From Gluconacetobacter aggeris (lineage in GTDB: Bacteria > Pseudomonadota > Alphaproteobacteria > Acetobacterales > Acetobacteraceae), in NCBI RefSeq assembly GCF_014174395.1, contig NZ_JABEQD010000003.1:124001-188000 (forward strand): a stretch of 64,000 bases of DNA. The letters are read 5' to 3'. The number at the start of each line of letters is the position of its first letter. Within the stretch, counting starts at the first letter, position 1. The notes beneath the pieces are model-generated. The model saw only the letters and a program-made list of their open reading frames with translations, was not told the origin of the DNA and did no database searches. Shown piece by piece: positions 12,534 through 18,696 of the stretch. The position numbers were made by a program, and so were the translations under genes.

Positions 12534-13979
12534 ATGGGAAGCCCGATCGAAACGCTGATCCGCGGAACAGTGGCCAAGGGCATCGGGACCCTGGCCGCGT
12601 TCAACCGCAAACACCTGCCGCCACCCGCCAACGGCAACCCGTTCCTGACCGGCATGCACACGCCGATGACCGAGGAACGGACGCTGACCGAACTGACGGT
12701 CACCGGCACGATCCCCGCCGGGCTCGACGGGCGCTATCTGCGCATCGGCCCCAACCCGGTGGCCCCCGATCCGGCCTCCTATCACTGGTTCATCGGCGAC
12801 GGCATGGTCCATGGGCTCGCGATCGCCAATGGCCGCGCATTGTGGTACCGCAACCGCTGGGTCCGCTCGAATGCCGTCGCCAAGGCGCGCGGCGTCGCCC
12901 CCGCGCCGGGGCCGCGCCACGCATTCGATACCGTGAACACCAACGTCGTCGATATCGGCGGCCGCACCTTCGCGCTGGTCGAGGCCGGCAGCTATCCGGT
13001 CGAACTCGGCGAGACACTCGACGATCAGCGCTACACTCCTTTCGACGGCTCGCTGCAAGGCTCCTTCAGCGCCCATCCCCACCGCGATCCGAAAACCGGC
13101 GAACAGCACGCCATCTGTTACGAGGGCCGCGACCCCGGCACCATCCGCTACGTCGTGATCGATGCAACCGGCCGCGTGATCCGCGAGGAACCGATCGCGG
13201 TCAAGCACGGCCCGATGATCCATGATTGCGCGATCACCGACCGTTTCGTAATCATCCTCGACCTGCCCGTCACCTTTTCCATGAAGGCACTGGTCGCGGG
13301 CCACGGTTTTCCCTATCGCTGGAACCCGGCGCATCAGGCACGGGTGGGGCTGATGCCGCGCCAGGGCCGGCAGGAGGATATCATCTGGTGCCCGGTCGCA
13401 CCGGGATACGCCTTCCATGTCGCCAACGCCCATGACACGGATGACGGGCAGGTAATCCTCGATCTCTGCGTCTATGACACGATGTTCAGCGACGGCGCGC
13501 AGGGGCCGGATGCACGGTCGCGCGGGCTGGAACGCTGGACCGTCGACCCCGCCGGCCGCACGGTCGCCATCCGCACGCTCGACGCCGCCCCCCAGGAATT
13601 CCCCCGCCCGGACGAACGATTCTTCGGCCAACCCTACCGCCACGCCTGGAGCCTCGCCCTGCCGGCCGATCCCGCCAGCCGCTTTCTCGGCGCAACGGCG
13701 CTCTACGCGCACGATCTCGCAACCGGCGAACGGCAAATCCATGATTTCGGCGCCAACCGCCATCCCGGCGAATTCGTCTTCGTGCCGGAGACCGCGGACA
13801 GTCCCGAAGGCCATGGCTGGCTGATCGGCTTCGTCATCGACATGGCGACCGAGACGACCGACCTCGTCATCCTCGACGCCCGCCGGTTTCAGGACCCGCC
13901 GGTTGCCAGCATCCGCCTGCCCCACCGCGTGCCGCCCGGCTTCCACGGCAACTGGATCGCCAGGGGTGAAGCGCAATGA
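12534..13979 (+). CDS. carotenoid oxygenase (carotenoid/stilbene cleavage dioxygenase family)
   Basis: A 481-aa member of the RPE65/CCD family, a seven-bladed beta-propeller with a non-haem Fe(II) held by four histidines. Candidate ligands are visible at H181 (in SAHPHRDP), H230 (MIHDCAIT), H295 (FHVANAHD) and H471 (FHGNW). The N-terminal [22 protein letters not shown] motif is also typical. The enzyme would cleave a double bond in a carotenoid, apocarotenoid or lignostilbene-type aromatic using oxygen; the substrate cannot be told from sequence. GGAGG five bases before the ATG supports the start. Its stop overlaps the next start (ATGA), so it forms a two-gene operon with the membrane protein downstream, under the divergent TetR regulator. 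Confidence 0.92.
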
Positions 13980-16164: not shown

Positions 16165-16302
16165 TCACATGCGGACCAACGCCAGACCGTAAAACACGGC
16201 CGCCAGGCCCAGCAGGGTAAAGGCCACGCCAAGGACCCGGCCGCGATGGCGGCGCACGCATTCGCGGGCCTCGTCTTGCGTCAGGGCAAGCGGTTGTTCC
16301 AT
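16165..16302 (-). CDS. CoxF-like small membrane protein
   Basis: A 45-aa protein with a charged N-terminal helix (LTQDEARECVRRHRGR) followed by one transmembrane helix (LGVAFTLLGLAAVFYGLALV). GGAGG six bases before the ATG supports the start, and the gene begins 11 bases after the ctaB stop. In many alphaproteobacteria a small CoxF-type protein of this layout sits directly after ctaB in the cytochrome c oxidase operon. Here the expected ctaG and ctaE genes do not follow. Assignment rests on position, size and topology, since such short proteins carry little sequence signal. Confidence 0.6.
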   Translation of the reverse strand: MEQPLALTQDEARECVRRHRGRVLGVAFTLLGLAAVFYGLALVRM

Positions 16303-16313
16303 CACCGGCCTCC

Positions 16314-17258
16314 TCAGCCCATGATCAGGAAATGATCGGCCAGCAGGCCACAGAACAGCAGGAACAGATAGAGCAGCGAGAAGCGGAACGCCCGCCGCGC
16401 CGCGCCATCGCCCGTCAGGCTGACACCGGTCGCATCCTGCCGATCCCGCAGCACACGCACCGCGCAGCCCACGAATCCGGCATCCAGCAGCCCGGCGATG
16501 GCGGAATACAGCCACCCCGCCTGATGCAGCACCGACGGCACCAGCGATACCGCCGAGAGGATCAGCGTATAGATCAGGATCTGCCGGCGCGTATGCCGGG
16601 CCCCACGCACAACCGGCAGCATCGGAATACCGGCCCGGCCATAATCCTTGCAGGCATAGAGCGACAACGACCAGAAATGCGGCGGCGTCCACAGAAAGAC
16701 GATCGCGAACATCACGACCGGCATCACATCCAGCGACCCGGTGGCCGCCGCCCAGCCGATCATGGGCGGAAAGGCACCGGCCGCCCCGCCGATCACGATG
16801 TTCTGCGGCGTCGAGCGCTTCAGCCACATCGTGTAGATCACGGCATAGAAGAAAATGGAAAAGGCCAGGATGAACGCGGCCAGCGCATTCGTCGCCAGCC
16901 ACATCAGCAGCACGGACGCCGCCGACAGGCCAATCCCAAAGCCCAGCGCCTGATCCTGCCGAATGCGCCCATCAGGAATGGGGCGGCGCGCGGTACGGGT
17001 CATGATCGCATCGATATCGCGATCGTACCACATATTGATCGCACCCGCCGCACCCGACGCCATGCAGATGCACAGGATGGCAACACACGCGATCACCGGG
17101 TTCAGATGCCCCGGCGCCATCGCCATGCCGGCGGCACCGGTAAACACCACCAGCGAGATCACGCGCGGCTTCAGCAGCGCGAACCAGTCGCGGGCCTCGG
17201 TCCCGACCAGCGCCGCCTCGAAACGCGGCGCCTCCGGCGCGGTGGCGCTGGCGCTCAT
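16314..17258 (-). CDS. ctaB: protohaem IX farnesyltransferase (haem O synthase)
   Basis: A 314-aa UbiA-superfamily prenyltransferase with about nine transmembrane helices. The first Asp-rich motif is NMWYDRDIDAIMTRTARRP, and the family signature PQNIVIGGAAGAFPPMIGWAA follows; WTPPHFWSLSLY is also diagnostic. It transfers a farnesyl group to haem b to make haem O. Haem O is needed by bo3-type ubiquinol oxidases, so the enzyme remains useful even if the adjacent oxidase subunit is not functional. The ATG overlaps the upstream CtaD-like stop by four bases, showing operon structure CtaD-like, ctaB, coxF-like. Symbol ctaB is used because of the cox-type context; cyoE would describe the same activity. 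Confidence 0.95.
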   Translation of the reverse strand: MSASATAPEAPRFEAALVGTEARDWFALLKPRVISLVVFTGAAGMAMAPGHLNPVIACVAILCICMASGAAGAINMWYDRDIDAIMTRTARRPIPDGRIRQDQALGFGIGLSAASVLLMWLATNALAAFILAFSIFFYAVIYTMWLKRSTPQNIVIGGAAGAFPPMIGWAAATGSLDVMPVVMFAIVFLWTPPHFWSLSLYACKDYGRAGIPMLPVVRGARHTRRQILIYTLILSAVSLVPSVLHQAGWLYSAIAGLLDAGFVGCAVRVLRDRQDATGVSLTGDGAARRAFRFSLLYLFLLFCGLLADHFLIMG

Positions 17259-18586
17259 GCCCCGGCTCCCCCCACCATGAAGCCGGCGAACGAATCACGC
17301 GGCGCGGGCGACGGCAGCGTCCATTCCAGGGTACGGGCACCCACCCCCCAGTAATTCCCGGCAACATGGCGACGCCCCAGCAGCGCCACACCCAGCACGG
17401 CAACGAAGACGACCATCGACAAGCCCTGCATCGCCACGCCCGCCATCACACCGCCGGGCACCAGGCCCGCGATGCTCCCGCCAACCGCCAGGGCCACATG
17501 CAGGCGCCCCGCCCATTCCGGATAGGCGCCGCCAGCCATCTTGCCGATCCAGTAATAGAAACCGCCGAACGCGGCGAACAGCGCCGCCGGCAGCACCAGC
17601 GCATGCGCGTCGGACCCGCCGCCCGCCAGCGCCTGCAAGGGGGCGGCGACCAGCATCGCCATGAAGGCAACGACCCACAGCATCGGCACGCGGAAAACCG
17701 GCCGACCGGCCAGGATCGTCCGTCCCCAGGCCACCAGCAGCACCAGCATCGGCAGCGCCATGACGGCCTGCTCGACCAGCGGCCGCGCGGCAGGCTGCGC
17801 CGCCAGCCCGGTCGCGAACAGATCATGCACCCACACCGACGCCCCGCCGACCGACAGCACGACCATCGCCCCCAGCGCCGGCCCACGCAGGCGCAGCGCC
17901 ACACCCGAGAAGGTTTCGACTAACTGGCAGATCACACCGGCCGCCGGCAGCAGCAGCAGCCCGACTTCCGGGCCCGAAAACACACGCAGGGCCCGCGCAG
18001 CGACATCGGCACCCGCACCGGCCAGCAGGCCCCGCGTCAGCGCCGCCGCCAGCACCGGCAGCACGATCACCATCATCATCGCCGTCAGGACCTGCGCCCA
18101 GACGAACAGCGGCATATCGCCCAGCCCCATGCCACGGCCCCGCATGTTCAACGCCGTCGCGACGATATTGATCGCCAGCCCCAGCATCGCCACACACCAC
18201 AGCATCATCGCACCCGCCGTCGACACGCCGGCGACGACCAGCCCGAAACTGGCGGCAAGACCGGCCCAGCAGGCCAGGTTCAGACGGCGGAATGCCATGT
18301 CGGGCGCGCCCAGCAGCAGCGGCACGAACCACGAGCCGAACCCGCCGACCAGCGCCGGCAGGGCGCAGAACAGGACCATCAGCGCACCGTGGTCGATTGC
18401 CATCCACGCGCCGCCGGCAGCCTGCCCCGCCCGCAGCGGCAACGCCAGACTGCCACCGACCAGACCGGCGACAACCGCCATGACCAGATAGAGCGTTCCA
18501 ACCGCCTTATGGCCGCTCACGCCACCGCTCCGCGTCAGGAAGCCGCCGGTTGCGACATTCATCCGGACCTGCCTCTCTGCCGGCAT
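17255..18586 (-). CDS. degenerate cytochrome c oxidase subunit I-like protein (binuclear-centre ligands mostly lost)
   Basis: A 443-aa polytopic protein with about twelve hydrophobic helices, clearly homologous to CtaD: GHKAVGTLYLVMAVVAGLVGG, GGFGSWFVPLLLGAPDMAF, MPLFVWAQVLTA and GGFYYWIGKM. Typical CtaD is ~530-550 aa. By alignment the low-spin haem ligands are kept (H66 in DHGALM; H328). The CuB ligand of HPEVY is Gly (G205), the cross-linked Tyr is Gly (G209), the HH pair is HD (H254, D255), and the high-spin haem ligand is Asp (D326). Proton-pumping oxygen reduction is therefore not expected. AGGAG about nine bases before the ATG at 18586 supports the start. The frame is intact and coupled to ctaB. 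It may be a decaying relic or a protein with a new single-haem role. Confidence 0.78.
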   Translation of the reverse strand: MPAERQVRMNVATGGFLTRSGGVSGHKAVGTLYLVMAVVAGLVGGSLALPLRAGQAAGGAWMAIDHGALMVLFCALPALVGGFGSWFVPLLLGAPDMAFRRLNLACWAGLAASFGLVVAGVSTAGAMMLWCVAMLGLAINIVATALNMRGRGMGLGDMPLFVWAQVLTAMMMVIVLPVLAAALTRGLLAGAGADVAARALRVFSGPEVGLLLLPAAGVICQLVETFSGVALRLRGPALGAMVVLSVGGASVWVHDLFATGLAAQPAARPLVEQAVMALPMLVLLVAWGRTILAGRPVFRVPMLWVVAFMAMLVAAPLQALAGGGSDAHALVLPAALFAAFGGFYYWIGKMAGGAYPEWAGRLHVALAVGGSIAGLVPGGVMAGVAMQGLSMVVFVAVLGVALLGRRHVAGNYWGVGARTLEWTLPSPAPRDSFAGFMVGGAGA

Positions 18587-18696
18587 ACGCCACTTCTCCT
18601 GCGCCGATGGGCCGCCACAGGGGCGGCCGTGCTCGAAATCGTGAGCATGTTACCGAAACCTGGCCGCCAAGACGAGAGCCACCAGGCCCCGTCCCC

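Follow-up and report, generated by a model that had tools for sequence, protein, structure and literature searches.

The closest described relative of the gene considered here is a ctaD remnant in Acetobacter that lies beside ctaB, the haem O synthase gene; the available part of PMC10715153, which cites Matsutani 2014, calls it a "deranged" COX1-like gene and says it is without all conserved metal-binding residues. Consecutive locus numbers are given for ctaB and ctaD of A. pasteurianus in the available part of PMC5158111. For the handling of haem around ordinary oxidases, what is available of PMC7140478 states that multimerisation of yeast Cox10 seems to depend on newly made Cox1, and what is available of PMC9145763 raises the possibility that haem O is tunnelled within bacterial CtaA-CtaB complexes and describes the low-spin haem as the first to form in subunit I. 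Here we analyse a 64,000-nucleotide stretch of the Gluconacetobacter aggeris genome (contig NZ_JABEQD010000003.1, positions 124,001 to 188,000; "the window" means this whole stretch) and in it the CtaD/COX1-derived protein encoded at 17255..18586 on the minus strand, which we name CtaD*, its homologues in other genomes being referred to as short forms. Judged by its sequence, CtaD* derives from subunit I of a cytochrome c oxidase; it has lost the oxygen-reducing centre and has kept both His at the low-spin haem ligand positions. The gene itself and a proposed link to CtaB are already known; what is printed about its metal sites, in the available part of that article, is at odds with the low-spin ligands being kept. 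Our literature search found no report of this retention, although Matsutani 2014 lay outside its coverage and the absence of such a report is therefore unproven.

A first-pass annotation of this DNA, which gave the gene's coordinates and left its strand unstated, had described the protein as CtaD-like, and this identity is borne out by its only Pfam match (COX1, 133 bits against a cut-off of 34.8), by its best solved relative in sequence, Paracoccus CtaD 1ar1_A (E 4.1e-50), and by its predicted fold; against the curated CtaD equivalog TIGR02891 it scores 163.8 bits, below the cut-off of 670.75. Its nearest named relatives, with at least 80 loci compared, are those of Ga. tumulicola and Ga. asukensis, 97% identical in protein. 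The AlphaFold2 model, built with 82 sequences, has 12 long helices (pLDDT 89.1, pTM 0.90), H66 opening the predicted helix 66-91 and H328 standing near the start of 324-351, and its best Foldseek match is Paracoccus CtaD 7ate_A (TMq 0.81). The same annotation had put the protein at about 100 residues less than a normal subunit I and had credited it with an intact frame, a Shine-Dalgarno sequence and coupling to ctaB, all of which we find: measured from stop to stop the frame is 464 amino acids (aa) long against 538-575 aa in twelve canonical CtaD, the 443 codons read without interruption from the ATG at 18584-18586, AGGAG stands nine bases before this start, and the stop codon overlaps the start of ctaB. 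The missing residues belong mainly to tails and loops; relative to the canonical L061, the absent stretches include the tails, the Arg-pair loop, the stretch just before AHFHYV/H411 and other loops (a comparison of 106 rows in which the window protein is counted twice). The Arg pair holds the haem propionates, and loss of its loop could make a haem exchangeable; the deleted loops are, we presume, those that face subunit II.

What singles the protein out is the unequal fate of its two metal sites. In the residue numbering of Paracoccus CtaD (H94, H276, Y280, H325, H326, H411, H413), the alignment to 1ar1_A places H66 at H94 and H328 at H413, the two low-spin haem ligands. At the oxygen-reducing centre, G205 and G209 take the places of H276 and Y280, so that the HPEVY motif reads GPEVG; H254-D255 stand at H325-H326, and D326 stands at H411, the proximal His of the high-spin haem. 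Neither the three CuB His with the cross-linked Tyr nor the haem a3 ligand is thus kept, and H254 is the one His left at the former a3/CuB ligand and Tyr positions. Each of these assignments had been made by position in the first-pass annotation, and each now stands on alignment. We reject the idea that the alignment is shifted and that a corrected one would bring back the active site or displace the ligands, since a second, independent alignment, of every short form against a model built from 57 canonical CtaDs, agrees with the alignment behind the residue counts given below.

The same pattern extends across the short forms, which were gathered from 150 and then 397 genomes of the family, from 68 chosen entries and from 120 genomes of the order, together with a scan of named genomes; at least 75 of the 120 genomes of the order hold one. 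The 130 loci with a short-form frame became 106 after removal of duplicates, and seven further sequences brought the set to 113 (an eighth further locus, L251, is identical to L045), so that at least 113 distinct short forms were read from 20 genus groups, including the window protein, L158. A contig-end piece in genome G009, in which H66 is present and H328 falls past the end, stands outside the 113. The H328 position is His in all 113 and the H66 position in 112, the exception being the frameshifted L215, where the H66 motif sits in another frame and whose assembly is listed as 85% complete; this locus was excluded from the 82-member alignment, the tree column counts and the loop comparison. 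At the former active site, His is found at H276 and Tyr at Y280 in none of the 113, and His at H411 in two, at H326 in 10 and at H325 in 51. In the alignment to the canonical model, every aligned cell is His, 107 of them at H94 (with 6 gaps) and 97 at H413 (with 16 gaps).

Retention of the low-spin ligands exceeds chance. Among the 82 aligned members, which are 22-91% identical to the window protein, the only invariant columns are H66, W163, W252 and H328, and the same four are the only ones among 406 without a change on a 39-row tree with a length of 38.7 changes per site; columns of this tree change 14.9 times on average, and those of the former ligands and Tyr 13-22 times. Canonical CtaD has 12 fixed His, and the short forms keep the low-spin ligands at the highest rates (0.94 and 0.87, all that is lacking being alignment gaps), followed by H363 at 0.83; the other nine reach at most 0.46 (fractions over 107 rows, with the window protein counted twice). 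H363, a non-ligand, is His in 96 of the 113 and Gln in the remainder. At position 130, 107 of 113 short forms have Trp where all 12 canonical CtaDs compared have Ala or Ser; this Trp, W130, may fill the vacated haem a3 pocket.

A tree of 39 short and 20 canonical rows hand-picked for spread, to which three further oxidases encoded in the window's genome served as outgroup, puts the short forms on one side of a branch with SH-aLRT support of 100 and the canonical CtaD and the three other oxidases on the opposite side; it is a quick tree with some long branches, and its inner order is unsure. Because the short forms make up a single clade, the active site was most simply lost once, followed by wide divergence with both His held, and the same branch speaks against several independent losses. 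Several records titled Mycobacterium, Solirubrobacterales, Paceibacterota and Terriglobia (L103, L110, L093 and L071) carry an alphaproteobacterial-type CtaD and are probably mislabelled or mixed assemblies; L103 falls beside Inquilinus in the tree. The ratio of nonsynonymous to synonymous substitution rates (dN/dS), a check proposed in the first-pass annotation, was taken as the median of pairwise NG86 values over pairs with a dS of 0.1-1.5 for both genes, which retained 42, 66, 18, 3 and 21 pairs in five genera, the 3 being those of genus group g41. The CtaD* medians, 0.30 in Gluconacetobacter, 0.16 in Komagataeibacter, and 0.09, 0.12 and 0.11 in genus groups g54, g41 and g33, are clearly below 1, and those of ctaB over the matching pairs are 0.02-0.10, indicating that purifying selection acts on CtaD*, more weakly than on ctaB. 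The alternative offered in the annotation, that the gene is a relic, is not borne out, given that the short forms have one origin and a dN/dS below 1, that 112 of the 113 read as one uninterrupted frame, and that the ligands are kept. Stops and random loss of H66 or H328, which would have pointed to simple decay, were looked for as well: both ligands persist and the frames are open, the exceptions on the other side of the account being L215, whose frame is shifted, and G001, a lineage from which the gene is missing.

The fixed neighbour of CtaD* is ctaB, whose product scores 333.8 bits against a TIGR01473 cut-off of 210.3 and is the sole match above cut-off in its genome. It follows directly on the same strand at 106 of 106 short-form loci, the window's own included, and at eight of eight further loci, most commonly with a 4-nucleotide overlap and with a largest gap of 52 nucleotides (ctaB starts being estimated by script). 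After ctaB comes a small open reading frame (ORF) for which we take CoxF to be the name; a search model seeded with eight of these loci's own peptides finds it at 103 of 106 loci (missing in L215, L216 and L221) and at eight of eight further loci, and inspection by eye shows a similar ORF behind ctaB in three canonical COX operons. It is possibly a third part of the CtaD*-CtaB system.

Given this coupling, the company that CtaD* keeps across genomes is informative. In 32 hand-chosen genomes, with a strong COX1-family oxidase defined as one above 450 bits, a short form is present in 24 (in G009 as the contig-end piece), and all 24 have exactly one CtaB above cut-off and at least one COX1-family oxidase over 450 bits. 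Five others (G029, G116, G066, G210 and G070) have no strong oxidase, no CtaB above cut-off and no short form; in three of these five, frames of 785-833 aa encode a COX1 relative scoring 139-145 bits. In G007 and G031, ctaB lies at contig ends and is followed by ordinary-looking COX genes, as judged by eye, and the best COX1 match of G031 is at 396 bits, along with pieces of an ordinary COX operon. Taken together, a short form occurs in 24 of the 25 chosen genomes that have CtaB and a strong oxidase and where nothing around ctaB suggests an ordinary COX operon, the exception being G001. As side observations on the oxidases themselves, the window's genome (L228-L231) has two cyo-like operons by eye, besides which it encodes a third oxidase, 544 aa long, and a COX1 relative that scores 262 bits, and G001, G007, G071 and G132 encode unusually long COX1-family frames of 959-987 aa, maybe fusions.

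The same survey bears on the type of haem. The haem A synthase family (CtaA) was not found in 13 of the 24 short-form genomes, and for this reason haem A is unlikely as a general ligand of CtaD*. Cox11/CtaG was found in one of 24 genomes examined, G086, which has a canonical CtaD, and in none of 21 short-form genomes; its absence is weaker evidence, because the canonical genome G023 and G001 also gave no match.

We favour the reading, to which we give about an even chance of being right, that CtaD* is a bis-His haem-binding partner of the haem O synthase CtaB that activates CtaB or carries haem O. A low-spin site kept exactly while the neighbouring site erodes suggests that this one site is in use, and the fixed partner, CtaB, is the only haem O synthase found in the genome, which is why the haem-binding role is placed there. 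In such a mechanism CtaD* would retain the 12-helix fold and low-spin haem site, having shed the oxygen-reducing centre and several loops, and would be co-translated with CtaB and the CoxF-like peptide; the haem that it would hold is one that CtaB makes or uses (O or B), and it would either activate CtaB or deliver haem O to the bo3/ba3-type ubiquinol oxidases (CyoB), no other source of haem O than CtaB having been found for these. Haem binding, the type of haem and the hand-off or activation step are thus predictions. Among the roles that the first-pass annotation had offered, a haem-delivery partner of CtaB fits best, owing to the ctaB coupling, the co-loss with oxidase and CtaB, and the loop loss; its broader suggestion of a repurposed single-haem membrane protein gains strong support from the ligand conservation, and its haem-binding part stays at the level of prediction. 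The apparent dependence of yeast Cox10 on Cox1, the possible CtaA-CtaB tunnelling and the early low-spin haem fit this reading too, as far as the available parts of those articles extend.

Further, and more doubtfully, the haem O synthase of acetic acid bacteria may be a three-part membrane complex, CtaD*-CtaB-CoxF, in which CtaD*, repurposed once, would be a single-site haem carrier that moves haem O from CtaB to the ubiquinol oxidases by way of its old low-spin site. If so, a haem-copper oxidase fold has been turned into a cofactor chaperone.

Several observations weigh against a haem-binding partner of CtaB. G001 is without CtaD* and yet has CtaB and two strong COX1-family oxidases, which are of CyoB length or longer; by eye its locus (L224, 5637-8549) has the synteny of the window, and its ctaB adjoins a presumed methyltransferase gene, the neighbour of CtaD* in the window. 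CtaD* is accordingly dispensable at times. To this are added the existence of the frameshifted copy L215, the CtaD* dN/dS of about two to five times the ctaB value, and the fact that two Trp, W163 and W252, match the His in invariance and that H363 is kept in most short forms, so that some of the constraint must be unrelated to haem ligation. In Matsutani 2014, the CtaB of Acetobacter (A. pasteurianus) was reportedly active as a haem O synthase in E. coli, apparently with no CtaD present.

Among other explanations the one that survives best, though we consider it unlikely, is that CtaD* is a mere structural scaffold that stabilises CtaB, free of haem, with its His kept for folding. This role has been proposed in print for the Acetobacter gene (PMC10715153, available part), and the invariable coupling to ctaB, the two Trp and the non-ligand H363 agree with it, but the low-spin ligands are the best retained of the 12 canonical His, and a scaffold leaves the retention of precisely an axial pair without a reason. 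Somewhat less probable still is a one-haem membrane electron carrier, or a haem sensor linked to quinol or O2: in oxidases, electrons enter subunit I at the low-spin haem (PMC9145763, available part), and the site of this haem is retained. The conserved cassette, however, consists of ctaB and the CoxF-like ORF only, with no redox partner. The deleted loops, presumably those that face subunit II, speak against this role as well. That CtaD* supplies CtaB with its substrate, haem B, rather than accepting its product, haem O, we regard as improbable; gene order and ligand invariance fit it equally, and the path of haem B to haem O synthase is described as unknown in the available part of PMC7140478. 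The data here do not separate substrate supply from product hand-off. Finally, a functionless, decaying pseudogene carried along with ctaB, for which the freely varying active-site columns, L215, G001 and the accumulated mutations reportedly claimed in Matsutani 2014 might speak, is rejected as scarcely credible on a dN/dS well below 1 in five genera and on ligand columns without a single change over the whole tree, and it sits badly with the 112 open frames of 113 and the ctaB coupling at every one of the 106 loci.

The features of the locus are collected in Table 1. Elsewhere in the window, a 481-aa ORF at 12534-13979 (+) has, by eye only, the look of a carotenoid-cleavage oxygenase.

Table 1. 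Features of the CtaD*-ctaB locus, in window coordinates; fractions refer to distinct short forms.
Feature	Position	Strand	Evidence or conservation
AGGAG ribosome-binding site of CtaD*	18596..18600	-	Read from sequence; nine bases before ATG
CtaD*	17255..18586	-	Pfam COX1 133 bits; best PDB relative Paracoccus CtaD; AlphaFold2; Foldseek
H66 codon, equivalent of low-spin haem ligand H94	18389..18391	-	His in 112/113
GPEVG (205-209), replacing HPEVY (CuB ligand H276, Tyr280)	17960..17974	-	H276 position His in 0/113; Y280 position Tyr in 0/113
H254-D255, replacing CuB pair H325-H326	17822..17827	-	His in 51/113 and 10/113
D326 codon, at haem a3 ligand H411 position	17609..17611	-	His in 2/113; 18 tree changes
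H328 codon, equivalent of low-spin haem ligand H413	17603..17605	-	His in 113/113
ctaB, haem O synthase, 314 aa	16314..17258	-	TIGR01473; overlaps CtaD* by 4 nucleotides
CoxF-like 45-aa single-helix peptide	16165..16302	-	11 bases after ctaB; single helix by eye

Whatever its role, CtaD* is predicted to be a natural one-haem version of subunit I, in which one metal site is retained exactly across 20 genus groups and the other erased, in a gene that print calls deranged; and if it carries haem O for CtaB, the route of new haem O to the oxidase becomes testable. Compared with family A CtaD/COX1 (Paracoccus 7ate_A and 1ar1_A), it shares the 12-helix fold, the low-spin His pair and the place before ctaB and a CoxF-like ORF, and differs in having no a3 ligand, no complete CuB site and no active-site Tyr, in the deletion of the Arg-pair and other loops, and in the company of genomes where Cox11/CtaG was not found, a trait shown by one canonical genome likewise. 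The remnant ctaD of Acetobacter (PMC10715153, available part) is a gene of the same kind, in the ctaD-ctaB cluster of acetic acid bacteria, from whose description the short forms here differ in keeping both low-spin ligands. All rows read from genus group g31, probably Acetobacter, retain the two ligands. The assignment of g31 rests on the PurE of its genome G030, which is 85% identical to PDB 1u11, the highest of 16, an entry that we take to be from A. aceti. With the factors that handle haem for oxidases, namely Surf1, the CtaA-CtaB complex and the Cox1-dependent oligomers of yeast Cox10, CtaD* would have in common the proposed haem hand-off or activation of haem O synthase; it differs from them in matching only COX1 in Pfam and in that CtaB would be partnered by an oxidase subunit that has been disabled.
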